A stretch of DNA of 40,817 nucleotides, taken from NCBI GenBank assembly GCA_030668615.1, contig DAOUTQ010000009.1:1-40817 (forward strand), read 5' to 3'. The notes beneath the pieces are model-generated. The model was not told the origin of the DNA. It did no database searches and saw only the letters and a list, made by a program, of their open reading frames with translations. Positions 1,844-39,991 of the stretch are shown piece by piece. The stretch comes from Bacteroidales bacterium (GTDB lineage: Bacteria; Bacteroidota; Bacteroidia; Bacteroidales; UBA12077). The position numbers and the translations under genes were made by a program. Position 1 is the first letter of the stretch, and every line of letters begins with the position of its first letter.

Positions 1844-4108
1844 ATGAAACGAAACGATAATATAAAACCTATAAATAAATCTATTGATCAGTTGGAAAAA
1901 TCAAATCAACGAAGCCTTATTAAAGACACTCTTTTGGTTTTTCTTCCAATTTTTGCATTAATAATTGCTGTAATAGTGGTAATTCTTTCCGTATATGAGA
2001 AATCAGAAATGAAATTGTTTCAGAACAACGAAAAAAGAATTGTTTACAATAAGCTGGAAAATATACAGACAGAAATTTTACATGTAACAAACGATTTGAT
2101 GATTCTTGCCTCGAATAGTCAAATGGAAAAGTTATGGGATAGTGATACAAAAGATGAAATAATAAAGTCCTTATCTAAAGATTTTTTAAATGTAGCGGTA
2201 TATTTTAAATTATATGATCAGATTCGTTTAATTGATGAAAATGGAATGGAAATTATTAGGGTTAATTTCAATAATGGGGATCCTGTGGTTGTTTCACAAG
2301 ATAAACTGCAAAACAAACAAAAACGGTACTATTTTTACGATGCATTTAAGCTAAATAAGGACGAAGTTTTTGTTTCGCCTCTTGACCTGAATATTGAGCA
2401 TGGCGAAATAGAAAAACCACTTAAGCCAATGATGCGTTTCGCAACCCCCGTATTTGATAAGCAAGGTAAAAAGCGCGGAATTGTATTGTTAAATTACTTT
2501 GGACAAACAATTACCAATCAAATTGTTAAACATGAGGATCAGTTGCGTGAAAATGAATTGATGCTTCTAAACTCAAATGGTTATTGGCTTAAAGGGCCTT
2601 CATCAGAATATGAGTGGGGTTTTATGTATGAAAGAAAGGATCTTGTATTTAAAAATGTTTATGATGATGCCTGGGATAAGATTAAAAGTGAAGAGTCTTC
2701 ACAATTTAGAACTCAACAAGGGATGTTTACTTTTAAAACTATTTATCCTTTGATTGAAGGGCAAAAATCAAGCATGGGTTCAGGAAAAGCATTTTTCCCA
2801 AGTAAATCGCAATTGAAATCAAAGGAGTATTTCTGGAAAATCGTATCTTATGTTCCTTCTAAAGAATTATATACAAACCGTAATACACTTCGCAAATTTT
2901 CCGCTTTATTATTTGTTTTTTTATCAATTAGTTTGTTATACATAACATGGAAGCTTGTTAAAGCTAAGCATTACAGAATTAAAGCACAGCAAGCATTAAA
3001 AGAAAGTGAAGAAAAATTCAGAGTTATTGTTGAAACAGCAAGCGATTGGATATGGGAAGTTGATGAGACAGGGAAATATACGTATTCAGGCCCTAATATA
3101 GTTTCAATCTTAGGTTATACTGAAAAAGAAATAATAGGAAAAACAGCATTTGATTTCATGCCTGAAACAGAAAAAAACAGAGTATCAAAAATATTCCAGG
3201 ATATTATTAAGAATAATAAAGCAATCAATAAGGTAGAAAACATAAATATTCATAAAAACGGCAAACATGTGGTATTGGAAACAAATGGCCTGCCTTTTTT
3301 CGATTCAAATGGTAAATTACTTGGTTATCGTGGTATTGATAGAGATATTACTGAACGAAAAAAAGCTGAGCAAGCTTTAAAAGAAAATGAAAACCGATTA
3401 AGAGAATTAAATGCTACAAAAGATAAATTCTTCTCAATAATTGCACATGACCTCAAAAGTCCATTTAATTCAATGCTTGGATTTTCCAATTTATTAATGA
3501 AAAACTTTGATAATTATGATGTAACAAAACAAAAGGACTTAATTAATATTATTCAAAAAGGATTAAAGAATACATTTAAATTACTTGAAAATTTACTTCT
3601 TTGGTCGCGTTCGCAAAAAGGTAGTATTGATTTCATCCCTGAAAGTGAAAACCTATATTTATTATGCAATGAAAGTATTGAATTATTAGAACAATTGGCT
3701 AAAGAAAAATCAATAAACATTATAAACAAAGTTCCAAATAATGTTTTTATCAAAGTAGATAAAAATATGATGTCAACTATATTACGTAATCTAATCTCAA
3801 ATGCTATTAAATATACTCACAAAGGAGGCAGAATTATAATCGAAACATGTGCAAATACAAATAAAAACAAGCAAAAATATACGGAAGTTTGTGTCAAAGA
3901 CAATGGAGTTGGCATTAAACATGAATATCTATCTAAAATATTTAGTATAAGTGAGAATATTTCAACTGGAGGAACAGAAAATGAGCGTGGCACAGGCCTT
4001 GGTTTAATTCTTTGTAAAGAGTTTGTTGAAAAGCATGGTGGTAAAATTTGGGTAGAAAGTGAAGTTGGGGTAGGAAGTAAGTTTATTTTTACAATACCAC
4101 TGTCTTAA
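1844..4108 (+). CDS. Membrane sensor histidine kinase (Cache-like sensor, PAS, HisKA, HATPase)
   Basis: A 754-residue hybrid-free sensor kinase. One membrane helix lies at ~30-51 and a second at ~352-372. The ~300 residues between them form an extracytoplasmic sensor that looks like a double-Cache fold (not verified). A PAS domain follows at ~386-506, ending in the usual DITERKKAEQAL linker. The HisKA phosphoacceptor is H535 (IIAHDLKSPF). The ATPase has its N box at ~649-657 (NLISNAIKYT), G1 at D686 (DNGVGI) and G2 at ~716 (GTGLGL). No receiver domain and no response regulator are next to it, so its partner must be elsewhere. It is 92 bp upstream of a second kinase with a very similar core, suggesting a shared transcript and a duplicated kinase module. 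The ligand cannot be told from sequence. Confidence 0.88.
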   Translation: MKRNDNIKPINKSIDQLEKSNQRSLIKDTLLVFLPIFALIIAVIVVILSVYEKSEMKLFQNNEKRIVYNKLENIQTEILHVTNDLMILASNSQMEKLWDSDTKDEIIKSLSKDFLNVAVYFKLYDQIRLIDENGMEIIRVNFNNGDPVVVSQDKLQNKQKRYYFYDAFKLNKDEVFVSPLDLNIEHGEIEKPLKPMMRFATPVFDKQGKKRGIVLLNYFGQTITNQIVKHEDQLRENELMLLNSNGYWLKGPSSEYEWGFMYERKDLVFKNVYDDAWDKIKSEESSQFRTQQGMFTFKTIYPLIEGQKSSMGSGKAFFPSKSQLKSKEYFWKIVSYVPSKELYTNRNTLRKFSALLFVFLSISLLYITWKLVKAKHYRIKAQQALKESEEKFRVIVETASDWIWEVDETGKYTYSGPNIVSILGYTEKEIIGKTAFDFMPETEKNRVSKIFQDIIKNNKAINKVENINIHKNGKHVVLETNGLPFFDSNGKLLGYRGIDRDITERKKAEQALKENENRLRELNATKDKFFSIIAHDLKSPFNSMLGFSNLLMKNFDNYDVTKQKDLINIIQKGLKNTFKLLENLLLWSRSQKGSIDFIPESENLYLLCNESIELLEQLAKEKSINIINKVPNNVFIKVDKNMMSTILRNLISNAIKYTHKGGRIIIETCANTNKNKQKYTEVCVKDNGVGIKHEYLSKIFSISENISTGGTENERGTGLGLILCKEFVEKHGGKIWVESEVGVGSKFIFTIPLS

Positions 4109-4200
4109 AAACAAAATTAGTAGGTTGTAATGATTTTATTTCAAAATCAATAAGTAGAAAGATACGGAATGCAGTAGTTAAAGAAGAGAAAGGTATATAA

Positions 4201-6972
4201 ATGAAAACAAAACCAACATACGGGGAATTAGAAAAGGAATTAAAAGAACTTAAAGCAGGGGATAAATCCCAAATACTTTTAGATCTGGCAGGAGTAATTT
4301 TTGTTACTCTTGATACAAATGGCATTGTGACACTTGTTAATAAAAAAGCCTGTGAAATATTCGGATATGAAGAAAAGGAGATGCTTGGTAAAAATTGGTT
4401 TGAAAATTTTGTTCCCGAACGAATAAAAAATGAAATTCTTCCGGTATCAAAAAAAATACTTTCTGGAGAAATTGAAACAGCTGAGTATTACGAAAATCCT
4501 ATTCTAACTAAAAAAGGCGATGAAATATTAATTTATTGGCACAATACACCAATAAAAGATAAAAACGGAAATATTACAGGACACCTTAGTTCTGGTGAAG
4601 ATATTACAGAGCGCAAAAAAGCCGAACAAGCGTTAATGGAAAGTGAAGAAAAATTCAGAATTTTTTATGATGACTCACCTATTGCTATCTGGGAAGAAGA
4701 TTTCTCCAAAGTTAAAAATCGTTTCGATAAACTAAAAACAAAGGGAGTTACCGATCTTAGAAGTTACTTTGAATCTAACCCTGATGAAAGTGTTTACTTA
4801 GCTGGTTTGGTTGAAATTGTTAGTATAAACAAACACTCTTTAAAGATTTTCAATGTTAGCTCAAAAAATGATATAATTAAAAAACTACCGGGATATTTTA
4901 ACGAAGATTCAATGAAAGTATTTCAGGAAGAAATGATAGCTCTTTTTAACAACCAAACTTCGTTTGATTCTGAAATACCAATTTTAGATTATGAATCTAA
5001 TATTTTAACCCTTGCTTTGAATTTAAAAATTGTTCCGGGTTATGAAAAAAATTTAAAAAAAGTATTAGTAAGTTTTTTAAATATTACCAAGCGCAAAAAA
5101 ATAGAACAAGCCTTTAAAGAAAGTGAAGAAAAATATCGTATAATAGCTGACTATAATTATGACTGGGAATACTGGATTGATATTAATGGTAATTTTATTT
5201 ATGTTTCACCCTCTTCCAAACGAAAAACGGGCTATAAACCTGAGGAGTTTTATAAAGACAAAAAACTTTTGGAAAAAATAATATATCCCGACGATAAAAA
5301 ACTTTTCTTAGACCATATACATGAAATAGATGAAAAAGGAGAACGAAAACCGATAGAATTTAGAATTATTACTCGTAATAAGGAAATACAATGGATTGGA
5401 CATGTTTGTCAGGAAGTTTTTGGAAAAGACGGCGAATTACTGGGAATACGTGGTAGTAACAGGCTTATTACAAAACGAAAAAATGTGGAGATAGCCTTAA
5501 AAGAAAGCGAAGAACGTTTCAGAGAAATTTTTGAGAATGCTCCGGATGCGATCTTTTTAGCTGATCCAAAATCCGGTGTTATTCTTGATGCAAATTCTGC
5601 CGCATCAAAATTGCTTTTAAGATCCCGTGAGGAAATTATTGGTATGAATCAGTCCGAACTCCACCCGCCTCAGAGTAAAAAATATTCAAAAAGCACATTC
5701 AGAGAGCATAATCAGGAAAGCCAAAAAGGAATGCCCACACATCTTGCTGAGATTACCGTTCTTCGTTCTGACGAGAGTGAAGTAGAAGTTGAAATATTAG
5801 CTCAAACGATCCAAATTAATAATAAGCCGATTCTTCAGGGCATATTTCGGGAAATCACCGCGCGCAAACAAATGGAAGAAAAGATACAGCTTCAAAGTGA
5901 GATCATGAAGAATATAAGTGAGGGTATTTACCTCATAGGGCTTAATGATGGAATAATCAAATATACCAACTTGAAATTTGAGAAGATGTTCGGTTATAAT
6001 CCTGGTGAAATGATTGGACACGATGTATCACTGGTCAATGCTCCGACCAAAAAAACGCCAAAAGAAACAAAGGACCAGATCGTAGATATTCTTGTGAATG
6101 AAGGAGAATGGCATGGAGAAGTCGAGAATATCAAAAAAGACGGAACTCATTTCTGGTGTTATGCGAACGTGTCTTTGTTCGATCATTTGAAATACGGAAG
6201 AGTTATTATCTCTGTCCATACTGATATCACTGAGAGAAAAAATGTAGAGAAAGTCTTAAAAGAAAACACAAAACGTTTAAAAGAACTAAACGCCACAAAA
6301 GATAAATTTTTCTCAATTATTGGGCACGATTTAAAAAGCCCACTGGGAAACGTTATAGGATTTAGTAAATTATTGCATAAAAATTCAAAAAAATATGATC
6401 AGGAAAAAATTACGCATTTTGCAAATACCATTAATAATTCTGCAACTATAACTTTAGAATTACTTGAAAACCTGCTTGATTGGGCTAATATTCAAACTGG
6501 GAAAATTCAAGTGTTTAAAGAAAAGTTTTGTGTATTAGAGGTGATTAATGAGGTAATTTCCAAATTAGAAAAAGCAGCGGCGCTAAAGGAAATAAAGATT
6601 AAACATAAGCTTTCAAAAGAAATAGAAATTTTAGCAGATCAAAATATGTTTAAAACCATAATGAGAAATCTTCTGACAAATGCTATAAAATTTACTAAGC
6701 GCGAAGGAAGCATATCTATAAAAGCAAAACAGCGTTCTAATTATACTGAAATAAGTGTGAAAGATACAGGAATAGGTATTTCGGTTAAAAAACAAGCAAA
6801 ATTATTTCGAATTGAAGAAAATATTTCAACAGTTGGAACTGAAAAAGAAACCGGAACTGGATTGGGCTTAATATTATGTAAAGAATTCATTGAAAAACAT
6901 GGCGGAGAAATTTGGGTAGAAAGTGAAGTTGTGAAAGGAAGTGAGTTTAAATTTACAATTCCGCTTGATTGA
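4201..6972 (+). CDS. Soluble multi-PAS sensor histidine kinase (five PAS-like units)
   Basis: A 923-residue kinase with no membrane segment. After a short coiled coil (YGELEKELKELK) come five PAS-like units at ~25-140, 150-295, 305-425, 437-560 and 560-680, most closed by a D-I-T-x-R-K linker. The HisKA phosphoacceptor is H709 (IIGHDLKSPL). The ATPase N box is ~823-831 (NLLTNAIKFT), G1 is at D855 (DTGIGI) and G2 at ~885 (GTGLGL). The kinase core closely resembles that of the preceding gene (shared string LNATKDKFFSII), so the two are probably paralogues. The fourth and fifth PAS units (about 5510-6240) are clearly richer in G+C and use codons such as CTC, ATC and CCG more than the flanks, as if that block came from another source. 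The role is cytoplasmic sensing, perhaps redox or gas, but no cofactor residue can be assigned. Confidence 0.85.
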   Translation: MKTKPTYGELEKELKELKAGDKSQILLDLAGVIFVTLDTNGIVTLVNKKACEIFGYEEKEMLGKNWFENFVPERIKNEILPVSKKILSGEIETAEYYENPILTKKGDEILIYWHNTPIKDKNGNITGHLSSGEDITERKKAEQALMESEEKFRIFYDDSPIAIWEEDFSKVKNRFDKLKTKGVTDLRSYFESNPDESVYLAGLVEIVSINKHSLKIFNVSSKNDIIKKLPGYFNEDSMKVFQEEMIALFNNQTSFDSEIPILDYESNILTLALNLKIVPGYEKNLKKVLVSFLNITKRKKIEQAFKESEEKYRIIADYNYDWEYWIDINGNFIYVSPSSKRKTGYKPEEFYKDKKLLEKIIYPDDKKLFLDHIHEIDEKGERKPIEFRIITRNKEIQWIGHVCQEVFGKDGELLGIRGSNRLITKRKNVEIALKESEERFREIFENAPDAIFLADPKSGVILDANSAASKLLLRSREEIIGMNQSELHPPQSKKYSKSTFREHNQESQKGMPTHLAEITVLRSDESEVEVEILAQTIQINNKPILQGIFREITARKQMEEKIQLQSEIMKNISEGIYLIGLNDGIIKYTNLKFEKMFGYNPGEMIGHDVSLVNAPTKKTPKETKDQIVDILVNEGEWHGEVENIKKDGTHFWCYANVSLFDHLKYGRVIISVHTDITERKNVEKVLKENTKRLKELNATKDKFFSIIGHDLKSPLGNVIGFSKLLHKNSKKYDQEKITHFANTINNSATITLELLENLLDWANIQTGKIQVFKEKFCVLEVINEVISKLEKAAALKEIKIKHKLSKEIEILADQNMFKTIMRNLLTNAIKFTKREGSISIKAKQRSNYTEISVKDTGIGISVKKQAKLFRIEENISTVGTEKETGTGLGLILCKEFIEKHGGEIWVESEVVKGSEFKFTIPLD

Positions 6973-7221: not shown

Positions 7222-7254
7222 ATACTCAAATATTAACAAAAAATTGGAGGTTAC

Positions 7255-7815
7255 ATGGTCGATTCAAGTACGGTCCTTTGGGGACAAACAATTGCTTACA
7301 CAATCTATTGCCTGGTAATATTACTGTTAATGGCGTGGTTTGCTTATAAAATCACAAAAACAGGAAAAGACAATAAAGTTAAGCCGGCATTATTTTACAC
7401 ATTTGTAGGTTTTTTAACCGCGCTTGGGGTTTCTTTGCACATTATTACTTACAACACTATTCCTTGGACTCCTGTAGATTTGAACAGGAGCGAATACGTG
7501 CCGGATAAGACATTTGATATTACGGTTGAAAATCATGAGTTTTTTCTGCCAGCAGAAAAACTGGTAATTGATTGTAATGATCTGGTTTTATTCGATGTTA
7601 CTTCAAAAGATTTAACATATGGATTTGGTATATTTCGAGAAGATAACAGTATGGTTTTCCAAATGCAGGTTGTTCCCGGGCATCGAAATGATATTCTGTG
7701 GCAGTTTGATAAACCTGGAATATATACTATTCGTTCAACTGAATATTCCGGACCAAGGGGAATATTTATGATATTGAAAGACGTGGTTGAGGTTTTACCT
7801 TGTGAAGGCTCATAA
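7255..7815 (+). CDS. Heme-copper oxidoreductase subunit II with a lost CuA site
   Basis: A 186-residue protein with two N-terminal membrane helices (~9-30 and ~42-64) and a cupredoxin-like domain (~82-180), the build of cytochrome c oxidase subunit II. The CuA ligands are missing. The first His of the usual T-H-G-F context is Y122 (LTYGFGIF). In the C-x-E-x-C-x-x-x-H-x-x-M signature, the matching segment STEYSGPRGIFM has S161, S165 and G169 at the Cys, Cys and His positions; only E163 and M172 remain. The domain therefore should not bind the dinuclear copper or take electrons from cytochrome c, which points to a quinol-fed enzyme as in CuA-less quinol oxidases. A strong GGAGG at 7246-7250 sets the start. 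The gene lies 32 bp upstream of the catalytic subunit, almost certainly in one operon. Confidence 0.82.
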   Translation: MVDSSTVLWGQTIAYTIYCLVILLLMAWFAYKITKTGKDNKVKPALFYTFVGFLTALGVSLHIITYNTIPWTPVDLNRSEYVPDKTFDITVENHEFFLPAEKLVIDCNDLVLFDVTSKDLTYGFGIFREDNSMVFQMQVVPGHRNDILWQFDKPGIYTIRSTEYSGPRGIFMILKDVVEVLPCEGS

Positions 7816-7847: not shown

Positions 7848-9470
7848 ATGTCATTTAAAAATACATTTATGAACGGAGCCGAAGGTTTATTTAAGCCCGA
7901 CTCTTTAACACAAATTCAAAAAATTGTATTGCGCTTTGTTGTTGTAGGGCTTGTATTTTACGCCTTTGCGGTAATTGAGGGTATGATAATGCGAATCTAT
8001 GCTGTAGATCCAATACCATTTATTAGTACAGATCAATATTTTGCGATTCTTACGGCACATCCTTTAGTAGGGATATTTGGTTCTACCTATGCTCTTGTGT
8101 TTGGTGCATTTCTTTTCCTTACACCATACTTAATGAAAAAACCATTATACAGTGTGAAGCTGGCTAATTGGTCATTGATATTGTTAACATCAGGAGTACT
8201 ACTTTTCTGGATAGCCGGATTTATTTCTCATTATGCACCCTTATATACTTTATATTGGCCTTTACCGGCAGATTTTAGTCAATTTAGTGTTTGGGGAGGT
8301 ACATTCTTTATTTTAGGTATTGCTATTTTAATGGTAGGAACCCTATTTTTTATTATTAATATTTTTAAAACCATTGTATATACACCAAAGGGTTGGGAAA
8401 AACAACCATCAGCAGCGCTACTTGGTTCTGCAATAGGTTATACAGGTTTAAGAAATATGTTTGCTAAAAAGGAGAATAAAAAAGAACATCTTGTTCCTTT
8501 ACCTGTTGCTGCAATAGCACGTGGTACTGTTGATATGGTTTTAAATACAGGTATTATTTTATTTACCGGAGTACTTATTCTGGTTTTTATGTTAGCTCAT
8601 ATTTTAGGTTTTGATTTAAAGGAAACTGCCATTGACGCATTATTATATAAAAACTGGTTTTGGTGGGGACTGGATTTAATTGCTGATGGTCTGGTACTTA
8701 TATTTGTTGCCGGAACATGGTATTTGCTTGCAGTAATGATTACAGGTAAAAAATTATTTATGCAAAATATTGCAAGAGCAGCTTTATTACTTGAGCTTGT
8801 AGTATCATGGACAGTTTGGTCGCACCACTTATTATCAGATCAAGCACAACCAGCTATATTAAAAATAGTGTCAGGAGAATTTGTAACAGCATTTGAGCTA
8901 ATTACCCAAGGCTTAGCATTCTTTATAGTGCTGGCAACTTTATGGTCTGCCAGACCACTAAAAATGACAAACCCTTTAAAATTTTTATTAGGTGGTTTAT
9001 TAGGATTTGCTTTAGCTGTTCCGGCAGGTATTATGCAGGCTGATGTTGGATTAAACAGGATATTGCACAATACACAATGGATTATTGGCCCACACGTTCA
9101 TGTAGCGATTCTGATCGGTTTAACCATGACATTATACGCAGCAGTGTATATTTTATTTCCTATTGTTACTAATGGAGCAAAATTATATAGTCAAAAGTTG
9201 GCCAATATTCATTTTTGGTTTCATTTAATTGGAGGAATCGGCATGGGGGCATTTATGGGAATGGCCGGATTAAATGGAATGTTACGAAGAACACTTTATG
9301 TTGATGGTGAATTTAATACATATATGATATTAGCTGCATTATCAGGATCATTGCTTTTAATTGCCTTTCTGGTATTCTTTTATAACATAGTAATGAGTGT
9401 TGGTTTAAAAGGTGTAATTGGAATTTTTATGCCATCCAAACTTAAAACTAAAGAACTACTACCAGAATAA
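7848..9470 (+). CDS. Heme-copper oxidoreductase catalytic subunit, nitric-oxide-reductase-like
   Basis: A 540-residue polytopic protein (about 12-14 helices) of the heme-copper oxidase superfamily. Helix-II heme ligand is H71 (LTAHPLVG), the helix-VII His pair is H326-H327 (WSHHLLSD) and the helix-X pair is H416/H418 (IGPHVHVA). Helix VI, normally supplying the first CuB/FeB His, reads WFWWGLDLIADG. Aligned to cNOR (W-W-V-V-H-L-W-V-E-G), the His becomes D276 and the catalytic Glu becomes D280. The H-P-E-V-Y motif of oxygen reductases, with its cross-linked Tyr, is absent. With the CuA-less subunit II upstream this favours a quinol:NO reductase or a divergent relative over an oxygen reductase. 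Similar ligand changes are described for proposed NOR groups outside cNOR/qNOR (from memory: gNOR). Activity is an inference. A terminator follows. Confidence 0.8.
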   Translation: MSFKNTFMNGAEGLFKPDSLTQIQKIVLRFVVVGLVFYAFAVIEGMIMRIYAVDPIPFISTDQYFAILTAHPLVGIFGSTYALVFGAFLFLTPYLMKKPLYSVKLANWSLILLTSGVLLFWIAGFISHYAPLYTLYWPLPADFSQFSVWGGTFFILGIAILMVGTLFFIINIFKTIVYTPKGWEKQPSAALLGSAIGYTGLRNMFAKKENKKEHLVPLPVAAIARGTVDMVLNTGIILFTGVLILVFMLAHILGFDLKETAIDALLYKNWFWWGLDLIADGLVLIFVAGTWYLLAVMITGKKLFMQNIARAALLLELVVSWTVWSHHLLSDQAQPAILKIVSGEFVTAFELITQGLAFFIVLATLWSARPLKMTNPLKFLLGGLLGFALAVPAGIMQADVGLNRILHNTQWIIGPHVHVAILIGLTMTLYAAVYILFPIVTNGAKLYSQKLANIHFWFHLIGGIGMGAFMGMAGLNGMLRRTLYVDGEFNTYMILAALSGSLLLIAFLVFFYNIVMSVGLKGVIGIFMPSKLKTKELLPE

Positions 9471-11399: not shown

Positions 11400-11816
11400 A
11401 TGAAATTTGATAAAACAAGTAAACTTTTAAAGGAAAAAAGTTTAAAAATTACACCTCAGCGCTTAGCTGTTTTAGAAGCTGTAATTAAATTAGCTAATCA
11501 TCCTACGGCGGATAAAATAATTGAATTTATTAAAAAGAATCATCCAAATATAGCTGTAGGAACAGTATATAAAACACTTGAAACTTATGTTGAAAAAGGA
11601 ATTGTAAAAAAGGTAAAAACAGATAAGGATATTATGCGTTACGATGCTGTTTTAGATAAGCATCATCATTTATATTGTTTGGAATCTGATAGGATTGAAG
11701 ATTATTATGATGATGATTTAAACCAAATGATAGAGGATTATTTAAGAAATAAAAAAATTGAAAATTTTAAAATAAAGAATATCAAATTACAAATTATAGG
11801 AAATTTTTTAAAGTAA
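11400..11816 (+). CDS. perR: Fur-family transcriptional repressor, PerR-like
   Basis: A 138-residue Fur-superfamily regulator. The N-terminal winged helix contains the family string KITPQRLAVLEAV and the recognition segment VGTVYKTLETYVEKGIV. The dimerisation half holds the regulatory-metal stretch DKHHHLYC. The structural-zinc cysteines are largely missing: after HHHLYC the expected second Cys of C-x-x-C is Ser (CLES), and there is no C-terminal C-x-x-C pair. Zinc-free relatives exist, so this does not argue for loss of function. It lies 22 bp upstream of a peroxiredoxin gene, in one predicted operon behind a 7-1-7 palindrome, which supports a peroxide-sensing (PerR) rather than iron-sensing role. 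An iron- or manganese-dependent Fur role cannot be excluded. Confidence 0.82.
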   Translation: MKFDKTSKLLKEKSLKITPQRLAVLEAVIKLANHPTADKIIEFIKKNHPNIAVGTVYKTLETYVEKGIVKKVKTDKDIMRYDAVLDKHHHLYCLESDRIEDYYDDDLNQMIEDYLRNKKIENFKIKNIKLQIIGNFLK

Positions 11817-11838
11817 TATTAACACTAAATTAAAGAAA

Positions 11839-12555
11839 ATGGAAGAAAAATTAGAACAGCAAGAAGTAATTTCAATGCCACGCATTGGAGAACCTGCACC
11901 GGAATTTAAAGCAGTTACAACTCAAGGTGATATAAATTTCCCGTCAGATTATAAAGGAAAATGGTCTATACTATTTAGTCACCCTGCAGATTTTACACCA
12001 GTTTGTACTTCAGAGTTTATGACTTTTGCTAATATGGAAAAGCAATTTAACGATGCAAACTGCCAGCTTATTGGTTTATCAATTGATGGTTTGTATAGTC
12101 ATATTGCCTGGTTGCGTACTATAAAGGAAAAAATTGAGTATAAAGGTATGAAGGATATCGAAGTTAAATTTCCTTTAATTGAAGATATAAAGATGGATGT
12201 TGCAAAGAAATATGGAATGATCCAACCGGGAGAAAGCAATACAAAAGCGGTTCGTGCTGTATTCTTTGTTGATCCAAAAGGAATTATTCGTGCAATTATT
12301 TATTACCCACTTAGCTTAGGTCGTAATTTCGATGAGTTATACAGAGCTCTAATTGCTATGCAAGCAGCCGATGAATTTGGTATTGCTACGCCTGCAGATT
12401 GGCGTCCGGGTGATGATGTAATTGTTTCTCCTGCCGGTTCATGTGGAACAGCACAAGAAAGAATGGAAGATAGCGAGATTGATTGCAAAGATTGGTTCTT
12501 CTGTACTAAAAAGTTAGATAAGGATGAAGTATTGAAAAAAGTTCTAAAAAAATAG
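11839..12555 (+). CDS. Peroxiredoxin, Prx6-type (thiol peroxidase)
   Basis: A 238-residue peroxiredoxin that reduces hydrogen and alkyl peroxides in the cytoplasm. The peroxidatic Cys is C56 in HPADFTPVCTSEF, with the Thr and the conserved Pro of the active site. The long C-terminal arm (RALIAMQ...GIATPADWRPGD...) and its cysteines C202, C216 and C222 (DWFFC) match the archaeal/bacterial Prx6 group such as the Aeropyrum thioredoxin peroxidase, where extra cysteines resolve the sulfenic acid. ATG at 11839 is used; an in-frame ATG at 11875 would also keep the whole fold (PRIGEPAPEF). The gene follows the PerR-like repressor and is closed by a terminator, so peroxide-induced derepression is likely. 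Confidence 0.92.
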   Translation: MEEKLEQQEVISMPRIGEPAPEFKAVTTQGDINFPSDYKGKWSILFSHPADFTPVCTSEFMTFANMEKQFNDANCQLIGLSIDGLYSHIAWLRTIKEKIEYKGMKDIEVKFPLIEDIKMDVAKKYGMIQPGESNTKAVRAVFFVDPKGIIRAIIYYPLSLGRNFDELYRALIAMQAADEFGIATPADWRPGDDVIVSPAGSCGTAQERMEDSEIDCKDWFFCTKKLDKDEVLKKVLKK

Positions 12556-12675: not shown

Positions 12676-13827
12676 ATGAAAATTATTAGATTAGTACCTG
12701 TTTTTATACTTCCTCTATTGATTACGTCATGTTGCTTAAATTCTTCAAATGATAAACAGGTAATAGAAAAATACTGGGAAACGCTTGACTCAAGTGGCTT
12801 TTCTGTATATTTAGGTACCACAATTGAAAAACAACAAGTTTTTTTAAATGTTATTACAGCAGATATTGAAACAGATGAAGTTGACAGCGAACCCAAGGTT
12901 GATGCTGCTGATGACCCTGCAATATGGGTGAATACTGAAAACCCAGAAAAGAGTTTAGTTCTTGGTACAAATAAAATGGGTGGTATTCATGTTTATGATC
13001 TTGATGGTAAAGAATTACAATATGTCCAATCAGGATGTATTAATAATATCGATTTAAGAGATGATTTTCAATTTAATGAGCAGGAAGTAGTACTAGTTGC
13101 AGCCAGCAATTGCACTTATAATACAATATCTTTATTTTATATAGATAAGAATACAAATTTACTTTCAGATTCGATTTTGAATATAGAATCGTCGGTTGAT
13201 TTAGTTTATGGTTTATGTATGTATAAAAGTGCAAAAACAAACAAATACTATATAATTGTAAATGGTGAAGGGGCTGATGTTGAGCAATGGGAAATATATA
13301 CTGAAAATAACGAACTAAAATATAAGCTTGTACGCAACTTTAAAGTTAGCAGCAAACCAGAAGGAATGGTTGCAGACGATTCTGAGGGTATTTTATATAT
13401 TGGAGTTGAAGAAGAAGGTATTCTTAAAATTAAAGCTGAACCGGAATTTGAATTTGAAACAGATTGGGTTGATGGCAGTAATCCTACAGACAGATCTTTG
13501 GTATCTTCAGATATTGAAGGCCTTGCTTTATACAAAACCGATAATAAAACCTATTTGGTTGCATCAAGTCAGGGAAATTTTTCGTATCCCGTTTTTGAAA
13601 TAGGAGAACCAGATAAATATCTATTTAGTTTTGTAATAGACGATGGAGATATTGATGGAGTTATTGAAACAGATGGACTGGAAATTGTGGATTTCCCTTT
13701 AAATGAAAAGTTTCCAAAAGGAATGATGGTTTTACAAGATGGATATAATTTTAGTAACGATAGTTTAAAGACTCAAAACTTTAAGTATATTTCTTGTGAA
13801 AAAATAGAAGCTTTGTTTCTTAAATAA
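12676..13827 (+). CDS. Lipoprotein beta-propeller phytase
   Basis: A 383-residue predicted lipoprotein: the N-terminus has a signal peptide ending in a lipobox (LITSC, lipidated Cys at 19). The mature part matches beta-propeller (alkaline) phytases: DAADDPAIWV is the family's first calcium-binding motif, followed by blade strings such as VLGTNKMGGIHVYDLDG, KPEGMVADD, SSDIEGLALY and the DTDGLE-like ETDGLEI. These calcium-dependent enzymes release phosphate from phytate and related inositol phosphates at the outer membrane or cell surface. The gene appears monocistronic, after a terminator, with the antiporter gene 62 bp downstream on the same strand. A different phosphoesterase specificity cannot be excluded, but the fold call is firm. 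Confidence 0.85.
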   Translation: MKIIRLVPVFILPLLITSCCLNSSNDKQVIEKYWETLDSSGFSVYLGTTIEKQQVFLNVITADIETDEVDSEPKVDAADDPAIWVNTENPEKSLVLGTNKMGGIHVYDLDGKELQYVQSGCINNIDLRDDFQFNEQEVVLVAASNCTYNTISLFYIDKNTNLLSDSILNIESSVDLVYGLCMYKSAKTNKYYIIVNGEGADVEQWEIYTENNELKYKLVRNFKVSSKPEGMVADDSEGILYIGVEEEGILKIKAEPEFEFETDWVDGSNPTDRSLVSSDIEGLALYKTDNKTYLVASSQGNFSYPVFEIGEPDKYLFSFVIDDGDIDGVIETDGLEIVDFPLNEKFPKGMMVLQDGYNFSNDSLKTQNFKYISCEKIEALFLK

Positions 13828-13889: not shown

Positions 13890-15812
13890 ATGATTGAATT
13901 CGGTCAAATACTAATTATACTTATTGCGTTTGTTTGGGTTGTTATTGCAAGCAATCAGGTGGCAAAATTCTTTCAAAAAATAAAATTCCCTCTTATTACT
14001 GGTTTCTTACTATCAGGTATTTTAATTGGCCCCTATGTTTTAGATTTAGTTCCTAAAGACGCCATACCTAAATTAAATTTTATAAATAATTTATCCTTGG
14101 CGTTTATTGCGTTTGCAGCGGGATCTGAATTGTATTTAAAAGAAATTAGAAACAGTATAAAAAGCATTGTCTGGAATACTTTTGGCCAGATAATTATCAC
14201 ATTTTTACTTGTAGCATTTGCAGTATACTTTCTTGAAGAACTGATTCCGTTTATGAAAAACATGAATGTAAACAGTAAAATCGCTGTAGCCATTCTTTCT
14301 GGTACTATTTTTATTGCTCGTTCACCTTCTTCTGTTATTGCAGTAATAAATGAAATGCGTGCTAAAGGTCCTTTTACTAAAACAGCAATTAGCGTTACTG
14401 TAATACTTGATGTTCTTGTAATTTTTTTATTTACAATATGTTTATCAATAGCTAATACTCTTATTCATGGAACAAGTTTTGACGTTAAATTTATTTTTTT
14501 ATTGATATTCGAACTTGCCGTGACACTTGTATTGGGTTTCTTTGTAGCCAGTTTAATTCAGTTTATACTTTCGATTAATTTAAATGAGTTTATTAAATCT
14601 ATTTTAATATTGGCAATAGGAATGATAATATATTCTATTACTCATTTTATTTTAGTTCATAGTATAGAACATTATGTAATTGAGATAATTATTGAACCGT
14701 TACTCGTTTGCATAATTGCAGGTTTTTGGATTAGCAATTATGGAAAATACAGAATGGAATTTCAAAAGATTATTCATGAAAAGGGACCAATTGTTTATGC
14801 TGCATTTTTTACATTAGCAGGTGCCAGTTTACATATTGATATTTTGATAAGTAATTGGATAATCGCAATATTACTTTTTATTGTTTATTTAGTAGCTTTA
14901 GTAATTGGAACATTTACAGGAAATACAATAGCAAGAAATCCTTCAATTTATAAAAAAATAGGTTGGATGCCTTTTATTACTCAAGCAGGTGTGGGGTTTG
15001 CGCTAGTTTATGAAGTTGCTGCAGATTTCCCGGATTGGGGAATGCAGTTCGCTACAATTATTATAGCTGTTATAGTTTTAAATCAGATGATTGGACCTCC
15101 TTTATTTAAATGGGCTGTAAAGATTGCGGGAGAAAGTAGATTGTATGCTAAAAGTCAATTAGAACCTGCTAAAAGTGCACTAATATTTGGTTTAGAGCAT
15201 CAATCGCTCGGATTGGTAAAAGAATTACAAAAAGCTAATTATAATGTTGAAATGGCTTCGGTCGAAAAAAGAAAAAATATAGAACATCTTAATTATGTAA
15301 ATATTCATTTTCTTGATGGCCTTAATATGAAATGCCTTAATTCGATTAATATTAAAAAATTTGAAACAGTTATTTTAATGCTTTCTGATGGTGAGAATTA
15401 TAAAATATGTAAATTGATTAAAAGATACGTAGGTACTAAAAACATTATAGTTAGACTTTTCGATTCAATTTACGGCAGCAAGTTTTATGAAATGGGAGTA
15501 ATTGTTGTAGATCCCTCAACCGCAATTGCACGACTGATTGAACAATTTGTTTTATCGCCAATTTCAGCCTCATTGATATTAGGTAAAGAAAATAATAAAG
15601 TTATGGCAGATATGAAAGTCACAGATAAACATCTGCATGGAATAGCTTTGCGTGATATTCGATTACCTGATGATGTAATAATTTTAACAGTTAAAAGGGG
15701 AGGTCAAATATTAATCTCTCATGGTTATACTCGTTTAAGAATTGGTGATATTGTTACTATAGTTGGATCAATGAGCAGTATAGAAAACTTAAGTCTGAGA
15801 TTTGAAGAATAA
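13890..15812 (+). CDS. CPA2-family cation/proton antiporter with RCK-type C-terminal domains
   Basis: A 640-residue protein: ~12 membrane helices in residues 1-410 (Na_H_exchanger fold, with ITGFLLSGILIGPYVLDL near the N-terminus and AAFFTLAGASLHIDIL near helix 10), then a Rossmann-like TrkA-N/RCK domain (~428-555) and a TrkA-C domain (~565-640; DIRLPDDVIILTVKRGG). It should exchange Na+ or K+ for H+ at the inner membrane. The dinucleotide motif of the RCK-N domain is degenerate (GLEHQSLG from G434 rather than GxGxxG), so NAD(H) control is doubtful, while the TrkA-C ligand domain looks normal. The stop is 7 bp from the stop of the convergent permease gene, with no terminator between them. Confidence 0.88.
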   Translation: MIEFGQILIILIAFVWVVIASNQVAKFFQKIKFPLITGFLLSGILIGPYVLDLVPKDAIPKLNFINNLSLAFIAFAAGSELYLKEIRNSIKSIVWNTFGQIIITFLLVAFAVYFLEELIPFMKNMNVNSKIAVAILSGTIFIARSPSSVIAVINEMRAKGPFTKTAISVTVILDVLVIFLFTICLSIANTLIHGTSFDVKFIFLLIFELAVTLVLGFFVASLIQFILSINLNEFIKSILILAIGMIIYSITHFILVHSIEHYVIEIIIEPLLVCIIAGFWISNYGKYRMEFQKIIHEKGPIVYAAFFTLAGASLHIDILISNWIIAILLFIVYLVALVIGTFTGNTIARNPSIYKKIGWMPFITQAGVGFALVYEVAADFPDWGMQFATIIIAVIVLNQMIGPPLFKWAVKIAGESRLYAKSQLEPAKSALIFGLEHQSLGLVKELQKANYNVEMASVEKRKNIEHLNYVNIHFLDGLNMKCLNSINIKKFETVILMLSDGENYKICKLIKRYVGTKNIIVRLFDSIYGSKFYEMGVIVVDPSTAIARLIEQFVLSPISASLILGKENNKVMADMKVTDKHLHGIALRDIRLPDDVIILTVKRGGQILISHGYTRLRIGDIVTIVGSMSSIENLSLRFEE

Positions 15813-34933: not shown

Positions 34934-36827
34934 ATTTAGTTGATAACTTATTCTCAACTAATCTTTCCTGATATGATTGTAAGATAGCTTTTAGATATGA
35001 TTCTGACTCTTGATATTCAGATTTTTGATCAATTATATTGTTTTGAAGCAAACTGTCTGATCTAAAATTATAAACTGCGATTGTTTTTGAACCATCAAAA
35101 TGTAATACATAATCATCCTTTACAAGTTGATAAATTCCATTAATATAATTAATCGCAAAATGATCTATTGAATCGTTTAATAAACTGTTTCCAAATGAAA
35201 TAAAAGGTTTATCGTAACCTAAATAATCTAATATTGTTGGGAAGATATCTGTTTGTTGGGCAACTGTATTTGATTGTCCTTTGAAAAGAGTATCCGATGG
35301 ACTATAAAAAAGAATAGGGACAGCATAATTCCCAATTTTGTTTTTATAATAACTTTTTTCTGCTTGAGCTGTATGATCTGCTGTAATGATGAAAAGTGTA
35401 TTATTATACCAATCGGCCTTCTTTGCTGATTCGAAGAACTCCTTTACAGAATAATCAGTATAACCAATACTTTCATGAATATTTAATGTTCCTTCAGGGA
35501 ATTTTCCCTTAAATTTTTCAGGTACTTCGTAAGGATGATGCGAAGTCAATGTAAATACAGATGTAAAGAATGGTTCAGTAAATTCTGACATTTTCGTGCT
35601 GAAATATTGTAAGTATTCTTCATCAAAAATCCCCCAGTTTCCATCCTTATCTGACTCGTTAGGATATTCATTCATTCCGAAATAATTTTCAATTCCGGCA
35701 ACATTTGCAAATTGATCGAAACCCATTGTTCCGTTTTTACCTCCATGAAAAAATGCTGTATAATATCCATTTTCTGAAAGGACACTGGCTATTGAATTAA
35801 TATTGTTTGAAGAATATTGCGAAGTAATGTATGTTTCATCAGTAAGTGCAGGTAATCCCGCAATTATAGATGGCATAGCTTCAATTGAACGTTTTCCATT
35901 AGCAAAAGCTTTTGTATATACTAAACTGTGTTGCGATAAAGAATCTAAAAAAGGAGTATATCCTGAACCCTTATTTAAAAATCCTGTATATTCTGCTGAA
36001 AAGCTTTCTAAAATAAGGATAACAATATTTGTTTTGTTTTGTGATGTTGGCTTGTATTCTTTTACAGGAGAAAACAATGAGTTGAGTTTTTCTTCATCGA
36101 AATATTTGACTGGAGTAACCGATTTACGACCAAAGGTTTTCATGATAGTAAACGGTGTGTTTAATACAAGAGGGATATTTTTAGCTAACGTATATTCTGA
36201 TGCATGAATAACTCTTAGCGGTTTTAGTTGAAAACCTCCGCGTCCGAAAACTAATCCGATACCCATTAACAAAATAAAAACTGCTAATTGAGATACCAAA
36301 TTTTTTAAACTAAGGAAATCTTTCTTCAAAAATTTAAAACTTAATTTGGGATAAAGTTTATACATCCCAAAGCACATTGCTGACCATATTAAAATTAGGT
36401 ACCAGAAATCTTTTATAAAATCAGGTAATAATGTTCGAAAATCTTCACCTAACCACACAGATGAAAAAATATCAGCAGTAAGTCTTTTATGTTCAAAATC
36501 AAAAAACTTCGTGTCAACAAAGTTAGTAGCTAACAATATTGAATTGATAAGTATAAAAACAAAAAGTAAAAAACTCTGATAGCTTTTATTATTCTTGAAA
36601 TTACCTGGGATCAAACTAAATAAAATAAAGAGCAGATTAAAATAATATAATGCAGAAATATCGAATCTAATACCAAAAAACAAAATCCTTAGTAACTCAC
36701 CAAAACTAACTGAATCAAAATAATTTATATTAAAAAAAAAGAAAAAGATTCGAGACACACTAAAAATTAGAATAAGAAGAAGAAATCGGTATATAAATAA
36801 TTTTATGTGGAAGAAGTAATTTTTCAT
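34932..36827 (-). CDS. LTA-synthase-like membrane sulfatase (phosphoglycerol/phosphoethanolamine transferase type)
   Basis: A 631-residue alkaline-phosphatase-superfamily protein. Five membrane helices occupy roughly residues 8-200, and a periplasmic catalytic domain follows. The metal site includes E274 (ILESFS), the probable nucleophile S314 (NGKRSIEAMPS), W398-D402 (WGIFDEEY), and D484-H485 (ITADHTAQ). This is the LtaS/MdoB-like group common in Bacteroidota, which have no lipoteichoic acid, so it more likely transfers phosphoglycerol or phosphoethanolamine to a glycolipid or glycan in the envelope. Transcribed alone with a predicted promoter at 36870-36901, next to a 24-bp palindrome. The exact donor and acceptor are unknown. 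Confidence 0.87.
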   Translation of the reverse strand: MKNYFFHIKLFIYRFLLLILIFSVSRIFFFFFNINYFDSVSFGELLRILFFGIRFDISALYYFNLLFILFSLIPGNFKNNKSYQSFLLFVFILINSILLATNFVDTKFFDFEHKRLTADIFSSVWLGEDFRTLLPDFIKDFWYLILIWSAMCFGMYKLYPKLSFKFLKKDFLSLKNLVSQLAVFILLMGIGLVFGRGGFQLKPLRVIHASEYTLAKNIPLVLNTPFTIMKTFGRKSVTPVKYFDEEKLNSLFSPVKEYKPTSQNKTNIVILILESFSAEYTGFLNKGSGYTPFLDSLSQHSLVYTKAFANGKRSIEAMPSIIAGLPALTDETYITSQYSSNNINSIASVLSENGYYTAFFHGGKNGTMGFDQFANVAGIENYFGMNEYPNESDKDGNWGIFDEEYLQYFSTKMSEFTEPFFTSVFTLTSHHPYEVPEKFKGKFPEGTLNIHESIGYTDYSVKEFFESAKKADWYNNTLFIITADHTAQAEKSYYKNKIGNYAVPILFYSPSDTLFKGQSNTVAQQTDIFPTILDYLGYDKPFISFGNSLLNDSIDHFAINYINGIYQLVKDDYVLHFDGSKTIAVYNFRSDSLLQNNIIDQKSEYQESESYLKAILQSYQERLVENKLSTK

Positions 36828-39562: not shown

Positions 39563-39991
39563 ATGAAAAAATTCAAATTTACAATAAGAGGTAACGACTA
39601 CGAAGTTGAAATTAAGGATATTGAAGGCGATATTGCGAAAGTAGAAGTCAATGGCTCTTGCTATGAAGTAGAAATTCATCAGGAAAAGGCAAAATCCACT
39701 AAAACGCCGACTTTGGTTCGTCCGAGAGTAACAGTAGACCGAAAAGAGAGTAAAATTAAAAAAACTGTTAGTAGCCGTGCTTATTCATTAACTGCTCCTC
39801 TTCCGGGAAGTATCTTTAAGATACTTAAACATGAAGGAGACGAAGTTAAAAAAGGCGACACAATTATGGTTATGGAAGCTATGAAAATGGAAAACAATAT
39901 TCAATCAGAGAAGGAAGGTGTTATTGTTAACATGAAAGTTAAAGAAGGTGATGCAGTACTTCAGAATGATGTTTTAGCAGAAATCGAATAA
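39563..39991 (+). CDS. Biotin carboxyl carrier subunit (gamma) of the decarboxylase
   Basis: A 142-residue biotinyl protein. The C-terminal ~75 residues form the biotinyl domain with the attachment site VMEAMKMENNIQ (biotinyl Lys K108). A short N-terminal part (KFKFTIRGNDYEVEIKDI) and a flexible linker precede it; the linker is Lys/Thr/Ser-rich rather than the Ala/Pro linker of many decarboxylase carriers. It accepts CO2 from methylmalonyl-CoA at MmdA and delivers it to the beta subunit, where decarboxylation drives Na+ export. 10 bp after the OadG-like gene and 6 bp before the beta subunit. Confidence 0.93.
   Translation: MKKFKFTIRGNDYEVEIKDIEGDIAKVEVNGSCYEVEIHQEKAKSTKTPTLVRPRVTVDRKESKIKKTVSSRAYSLTAPLPGSIFKILKHEGDEVKKGDTIMVMEAMKMENNIQSEKEGVIVNMKVKEGDAVLQNDVLAEIE

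Follow-up and report, generated by a model that had tools for sequence, protein, structure and literature searches.

A conserved heme-copper gene pair of a Bacteroidales bacterium, with two helix-VI aspartates and a CuA-less subunit II, is probably a gNOR-type quinol:NO oxidoreductase

The described classes of heme-copper oxygen and NO reductases differ at a diagnostic residue, given in Table A4 of PMC8756737 as Tyr in oxygen reductases, Glu in cNOR and qNOR, Asn in sNOR and CuANOR, Gln in eNOR, and Asp in gNOR. The same table lists zero proton channels for gNOR, and the introduction of that paper has gNOR as a predicted two-subunit enzyme whose second subunit has a cupredoxin fold. The available text of PMC8906906 describes gNOR (norGH) as quinone-oxidising and non-electrogenic, while an excerpt of PMC6349771, contrary to both accounts, predicts that gNOR translocates protons. 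The genera named for gNOR are Sulfurimonas, Sulfurovum and Persephonella (passage in PMC8756737), and its occurrence in Ca. Methylomirabilis is mentioned in a passage of PMC6094997; in the portion of PMC11388526 available, only cNOR, qNOR, bNOR and eNOR are named as biochemically characterised. In the qNOR of N. meningitidis, as described in the available part of PMC7201271, FeB is bound by His490, His541, His542 and Glu494, the last of which corresponds to Glu211 of P. aeruginosa cNOR, and Glu494, Glu498 and Glu563 are clustered at the end of a proton path.

Here we analyse a heme-copper gene pair encoded in a window (the whole stretch of DNA that was analysed) of 40,817 nucleotides. By published diagnostic features, and not by tree position, the encoded enzyme is probably a two-subunit membrane quinol:NO oxidoreductase of the gNOR type. 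gNOR itself probably has an Asp replacing one His ligand, and a 2024 PNAS paper on NO reductases reportedly speaks of novel active-site structures. The literature excerpts retrieved in our search contain no mention of a His-to-Asp ligand exchange in gNOR.

The gene pair and its active-site residues

Positions 7848–9470 of the plus strand form an open frame of 540 residues with zero internal stops, which matches PF00115 (COX1) of Pfam over residues 25–500 with E = 1.3e-58. From this frame, the PF00115 match and its own clade in the tree, the product is assigned as the putative catalytic subunit (subunit I) of an NO-reductase-like enzyme of the gNOR type. The protein falls far under the curated cut-off in all four NCBIfam models that it matches, including CtaD/CoxA (109.6 bits versus 670.75) and CcoN (60.7 bits versus 583.15). 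A scan of contigs identified 325 stretches that encode a relative, of which the best 80 loci (L048–L127) were retained. The counts of ligands, codons and Rrf2 genes given below refer to the window plus these best 80 of 325 only, a set of 81 loci that leans to close relatives.

Helix VI of subunit I reads W270-F-W-W-G-L-D276-L-I-A-D280-G (WFWWGLDLIADG). Specifically, D276 (8673–8675) replaces the first FeB/CuB His ligand, and D280 (8685–8687) occupies the position of the oxygen-reductase Tyr and the cNOR/qNOR Glu. The remaining FeB ligands, H326 and H327 (8823–8828), the low-spin heme ligand H71 (8058–8060), the active-site heme ligand H416 and the low-spin heme ligand H418 (9093–9101), as well as E350 (8895–8897), which is aligned with the helix-VIII Glu of cNOR, are all encoded on the same strand. 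Each of these eight residues is present in 81 of the 81 loci. D276 is encoded by GAT at 55 loci and GAC at 26, and D280 by GAT at 46 and GAC at 35 (window plus best 80 of 325); both synonymous codons are in use, indicating that the residue, and not the DNA, is what is kept. A single base change would convert either codon to one for His. Furthermore, in another sample with partly overlapping genomes, every row that covers helix VI (21 of 21, counting the window) has both aspartates. Asp276 and Asp280 are a family trait and not a feature of one odd sequence.

Among the same 81 rows (window plus best 80 of 325), Tyr is absent from helix VI (residues 270–291; 0/81), and in the His-pair stretch (residues 303–329) it occurs only at the non-conserved position 304 (8/81). 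Leu284, present in 81 of 81, is located where cNOR carries its second helix-VI Glu, and Ala357, also 81 of 81, lies in the column where one A-type row has the K-channel Lys. The other conserved His residues of subunit I, H128 (78/81), H214 (80/81), H407 (81/81), H455 (81/81) and H459 (77/81), are all located elsewhere than in helix VI or the His-pair stretch, and on sequence grounds each was rejected as a compensating His; in the columns of H407 and H455, certain rows from other families likewise carry His. The original prediction, which had the heme and metal histidines in place, read D276 and D280 as the ligand-His and FeB-Glu positions, and noted that the oxygen-reductase Tyr was absent, is borne out on these points, the column assignment by the alignments described below.

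Subunit II (7255–7815, plus strand, 186 residues) is preceded by a GGAGG ribosome site at 7246–7250 and ends 32 bases before subunit I. As judged from hydropathy and the TIGR02866 match, it is composed of two N-terminal hydrophobic stretches and a CoxB-like, cupredoxin-type domain without CuA ligands. The match to NCBIfam TIGR02866 (CoxB) has E 2.9e-9 and 36.8 bits, under the cut-off of 147.7, and there is no Pfam match at E 0.001. Among solved structures, 6ptt (cytochrome c oxidase subunit 2) is its best match at E 1.1e-4, and the ba3-type 1ehk matches at E 0.011; the profile of one further PDB search already contained true CoxB rows, and hence that search is not independent. At 79 of the best 80 of 325 loci, a same-strand homolog of subunit II precedes subunit I, the exception (L067) having only 40 upstream bases.

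In alignment with true CoxB, Tyr122 (7618–7620) replaces the first CuA His, and STEYSGPRGIFM (7735–7770) replaces the CuA motif CxExCGxxHxxM, with both Cys exchanged for Ser, His exchanged for Gly, Glu kept, and Met mostly kept. In particular, Y122, S161, E163, S165 and G169 are present in 80 of 80 subunit II rows and M172 in 78 (best 80 of 325 loci), and four of the six CuA ligands are lost in every one of these rows. Loss of CuA with retention of the fold is the state of quinol oxidases, e.g. cytochrome bo3, and quinol is thus the likely electron donor.

Relation to described heme-copper families

The alignment of 67 rows comprises oxygen reductases, one cNOR and sNOR-like proteins, 19 near-duplicate or partial rows of an initial 86 having been dropped. 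In this alignment, D276 is matched to the first CuB/FeB His and D280 to the cNOR Glu. The cNOR reference is that of S. meliloti pSymA, whose best solved match is NorB 4xyd (E 2.5e-199). In 40 re-alignments (10 random subsets in each of four MAFFT modes), D276 falls on the cNOR His in 32 and D280 on the cNOR Glu in 32, the cNOR columns being missed in eight (E-INS-i 5/10, L-INS-i 2/10, auto 1/10), while E350 in helix VIII falls on a cNOR Glu in 39. A profile comparison of A1 with a single cNOR gave a prob of 3.3. By its distance from the His pair, the Glu of cNOR with which E350 is aligned would be the counterpart of qNOR Glu563. The alignment and this spacing count together indicate that in the family the first His and Glu494 would each be exchanged for Asp and Glu498 for Leu, with the Glu at the position of Glu563 kept.

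A maximum-likelihood tree was calculated from 49 of the 67 aligned rows, with long-branch rows kept. The family is recovered as one clade (100/100) and falls into none of the clades formed by the A (16 rows), B (7 rows) and C (7 rows) oxygen reductases, respectively. It groups with B-family and sNOR-like rows at a weak 87/53, on a very long stem branch of 1.87. The nearest neighbour of the family in the tree is thus unsure, and placement inside the A, B or C oxygen-reductase clade is not supported.

The family resembles cNOR NorB and qNOR NorZ in that their H-x-x-x-E corresponds to D276-x-x-x-D280, the helix-VIII acid is kept as E350, and no active-site Tyr is present. However, its first ligand is Asp and not His, the Glu is exchanged for Asp, the second Glu is replaced by Leu284, subunit II is CoxB-like with neither a heme-c subunit nor a fused N-terminal domain, and the tree distance is large; assignment to cNOR/qNOR was rejected on the ligand exchanges and the subunit. 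The sNOR-like proteins L032 and L151, named from their Asn, share with the family the absence of a Tyr in the helix-VI motif and a DALLxKN stretch before helix VI, and are its weakly supported tree neighbours, but their first His is retained and the Tyr position is occupied by Asn. L028 is a further heme-copper protein of this kind (sNOR-like or related), with Asn at the Tyr position and the first His kept. Assignment to sNOR/CuANOR (bNOR), for which Asn is expected at the Tyr position, and to eNOR, which would need Gln there, was rejected on the Asp in 81 of 81 rows (window plus best 80 of 325), with the loss of the CuA ligands as a further difference from CuANOR. The ba3-type B-family enzymes lie on the same side of the tree (87/53), and subunit II matches 6ptt and 1ehk, but B-family enzymes carry the helix-VI motif H-x-x-V-Y, the family falls outside the B clade (100/100), and its CuA ligands are lost. 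Oxygen reductases of the A, B and C families were rejected as a class on tree position, on the missing helix-VI Tyr, and on the lack of three CuB His.

Three features described for gNOR are found in the sequences: an Asp at the Tyr/Glu position, a cupredoxin-type subunit II in a two-subunit enzyme, and a loss of CuA that fits a quinone-oxidising enzyme. Taken together, they make a gNOR-type quinol:NO reductase the likeliest identity, with the family as a further member of gNOR, a kind predicted from sequence and biochemically uncharacterised. The comparison is by published description; the Asp at the first FeB His is seen in the family and is probable for gNOR. The family loci differ from gNOR in their titles, which among the best 80 of 325 are mostly of Bacteroidota with a few of other phyla. 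There is a modest chance that the Asp-ligated site differs from that of published gNOR.

Gene neighbourhood, carrier genomes and spread

The Pfam neighbourhood scan covered 30 of the 32 window ORFs of at least 100 aa (35803–36207 and 39563–39991 were left out). No denitrification family was detected among these 30 ORFs, which agrees with the original prediction that no denitrification gene is nearby; four of the 30, including subunit II, are without any Pfam match. Two large PAS histidine kinases are arranged in tandem just upstream of the operon (1844–6972), and related kinases are located near 12 of 81 loci, window included, counting both strands (window plus best 80 of 325). Downstream of subunit I, the window encodes an ABC ATPase, a Fur-family regulator and a peroxiredoxin. 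The last two are adjacent (11400–12555), likely form a peroxide-response pair, and are found at 4 and 3 of the 81 loci, respectively. They are followed by a phytase-family protein (12676–13827) and a Na+/H+ exchanger with TrkA domains (13890–15812).

An Rrf2-family gene is positioned directly upstream of subunit II, on the same strand, at 48 of the 74 loci with at least 600 upstream bases (from the best 80 of 325), or at 47 of 72 with another threshold. It is present at 49 loci in all, with a gap to the operon of −39 to 118 bases. All 51 clustered Rrf2 rows carry C-x6-C-x5-C-x2-H, and the five Rrf2 proteins tested score above the Rrf2 superfamily cut-off and below the NsrR and IscR equivalog cut-offs. 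The Rrf2 proteins may sense Fe-S clusters or NO. Neither an Rrf2 gene nor the palindrome described below is found beside the window's copy, and the Rrf2 gene is absent from seven of the eight closest loci (L048–L050 and L052–L055), the eighth (L051) being too short.

The palindrome ACCTNNAGGT occurs in 11 of 76 upstream regions, as compared with 0.24 on average and at most 2 over 50 shuffles, and all 11 loci have the Rrf2 gene. In nine of the 11 (L068, L079, L082, L083, L084, L087, L088, L092 and L111), it lies at the same place, the start of the Rrf2 frame, and in L102 and L110 it lies 5–8 bases or more upstream of the Rrf2 gene start. The more stringent version ATACCTNNAGGTAT is found five times in 1.05 Mb of loci, each time there, with five different middle base pairs. 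The palindrome may be an operator of the Rrf2 regulator itself; the loci are related, and ancestry adds to the count. Presumably, it does not resemble the E. coli NsrR site. An initial palindrome search yielded one pair in 5 of 76 sequences, versus 2–3 in shuffles, and a promoter scan yielded 17 sites, versus 14.4 in shuffles.

With E. coli proteins as yardsticks, Hcp-like genes were found within 9 kb of subunit I at two of the 81 loci (window plus best 80 of 325; L061 and L085), YtfE-like genes at three (L056, L083 and L091, two of them weak matches of E ~1e-6), and a NorV-like gene at one, while Hcr, Hmp and NrfA were found at 0 of 81. YtfE and Hcp are linked to NO stress in E. coli. These counts, taken without a background rate, are at most suggestive of a link to NO.

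In the window's own assembly (3.33 Mb, 88% complete), subunit I is the sole PF00115 gene, cytochrome bd is the only other terminal oxidase found, NrfA is present, and NosZ, NirS and NirK have no match, absences that are provisional at this completeness. We compared 25 carrier genomes, four of them obtained via the best-80-of-325 loci, with 23 non-carriers chosen from 43 match-free genomes mostly by completeness and not at random, using thresholds of E 1e-10 for NirS and NirK and 0.001 for NosZ, NrfA and CydA. The PF00115 match (E 1e-10) is the sole one in 10 of the 25 carriers, and cytochrome bd is present in 19, in one of them as a fragment. Published passages on Melioribacter roseus list a bd oxidase along with two further heme-copper oxidases. 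NrfA (E <1e-100) is no commoner in carriers (13/25) than in non-carriers (13/23), with one internal stop in each set, indicating that NrfA is not tied to the family. NosZ is over the cut-off in five of 25 carriers versus one of 23 non-carriers, and NirK in one of 25 versus 0 of 23. NirS is found in 0 of 25 carriers, and in one of 23 non-carriers as a short partial match over the cut-off. Among 14 control genomes, NirS is found in none, NosZ is over the cut-off in none, and NirK is over the cut-off in one.

Since almost no NO-forming nitrite reductase is found in carriers, detoxification of NO, or scavenging of NO from outside, is likelier than denitrification. The original prediction had preferred NO detoxification to respiration, and the carrier counts favour the same choice. 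A similar treatment is given to nor-only genomes in a large survey, the available part of which takes them as likely detoxifying (PMC12569097).

Full-length members of the family are present in 13 of 59 genomes of a sample of relatives, own genome included, with fragments in one more, and in 8 of 296 genomes of a phylum sample, own genome again included, with a split copy and a fragment in addition. Three more phylum samples, each centred on a carrier that is counted, gave 1/200, 4/297 and 1/199. In a quick family tree, single rows bearing the titles of other phyla are interspersed with Bacteroidota, the titles being those submitted and the pattern no proof of transfer. The copy in L122 (titled Longimicrobiales) is 81% identical, with a GC of 0.59 in the gene and 0.61 in the rest, and the copy in L099 (titled Acidobacteriota) is 77% identical, with a GC of 0.66 in both; identity together with a GC-matched gene suggests gene transfer between phyla. 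A scan of viral contigs detected no relative, and a tblastn search of plasmids gave 53 records, none of which reaches 60% identity; among the matches listed, those with an annotation are cytochrome oxidases.

Competing readings and a proposed mechanism

The enzyme could be an NO reductase by function and yet belong to a family distinct from published gNOR, having reached the Asp at the Tyr position independently and having the His-to-Asp exchange as a trait of its own. We consider this rather unlikely. The very long stem of 1.87, the homolog identities of at least 70% or at most 38% with no intermediates among the matches listed, and the fact that the published gNOR genera were compared by description only are all consistent with a separate family, whereas the diagnostic Asp, the two-subunit build with its cupredoxin-type subunit II, and the CuA loss all match gNOR as printed, and one His ligand of gNOR is probably replaced by Asp as well. 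Considerably less probable is a quinol:O2 reductase that has diverged and dispenses with the cross-linked Tyr. Such an enzyme would belong to the same superfamily with the same heme ligands, would suit the weak grouping with B-family and sNOR-like rows (87/53), and would not be out of place beside the Fur-family regulator and peroxiredoxin downstream in the window; against it stand the absence of Tyr from helix VI (0/81) and of any conserved Tyr from the His-pair stretch (window plus best 80 of 325), the acids at positions where NO reductases have acids, the position outside the A, B and C clades at 100/100, and the cytochrome bd already present in the own genome. The original prediction had named a place inside the B-family O2 reductases, with a compensating Tyr and His, as the result that would speak against it; the sequences give a separate clade and a helix VI free of Tyr.

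Slightly less probable again is a superfamily enzyme for other small nitrogen or oxygen species, as in NO dismutation, or an NO sensor without turnover. The function is predicted only, and the ligand set is unlike that of the qNOR and cNOR sites in the available part of PMC7201271, both of which leave room for such an activity, but strong selection maintains the full heme ligands together with a dedicated subunit II, which points to redox turnover, and putative NO dismutases are placed among qNORs in a figure legend of PMC3413370. Finally, the window comes from a draft assembly that is 88% complete, where a sequencing error, a pseudogene or a decaying oxidase might be suspected. This suspicion is scarcely credible given the open frame and the conserved gene pair, and error or pseudogene is refuted by Asp in 81 of 81 rows at both sites (window plus best 80 of 325) with both synonymous codons in use. 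The original reading of an NO-reductase-like enzyme with an Asp-rich metal site and a quinol donor is favoured by the residues, the CuA loss and the clade; it gains gNOR as a likely name and the CuA-less subunit II as further evidence.

For the favoured gNOR-type quinol:NO reductase, we infer the following scheme from the observed residues, their conservation, the CuA loss, the gene pair and the clade. Oxidation of quinol at the membrane would involve neither CuA nor cytochrome c, and electrons would pass to the low-spin heme (H71 and H418) and then to the active-site heme (H416). The active-site heme would face a non-heme metal, probably iron, held by H326, H327 and the carboxylates D276 and D280, and not by three His. 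A 2-His-carboxylate site should favour iron over copper and place proton donors close by. Two NO would be coupled and reduced, giving N2O and water, and D280 and E350 would serve as acid groups and proton donors, like the Glu residues of cNOR/qNOR. The role of the enzyme would be to clear NO that reaches the cell or is formed as a by-product.

A more far-reaching proposal, which we advance tentatively and regard as unlikely on balance, is that the FeB site has turned into a 2-His-carboxylate site (H326, H327 and D276, with D280 and E350 as further acids) in parallel to the facial triad known from soluble non-heme iron enzymes. Such a site would have arisen apart from cNOR/qNOR, with a ligand set distinct from that of published gNOR. 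Gene transfer would have distributed it, as a self-contained unit for quinol:NO detoxification that in many cases has an Rrf2 regulator of its own, among bacteria that lack an NO-forming nitrite reductase.

The gene pair is compact and well conserved, and its subunit I is the sole PF00115 gene in 10 of 25 carriers, which would make a gene-removal or heterologous test clean. The Asp ligand bears on whether the superfamily needs three His at the non-heme metal. If N2O is made, bacteria that have an NO reductase but no nitrite reductase would add to the sources of N2O.
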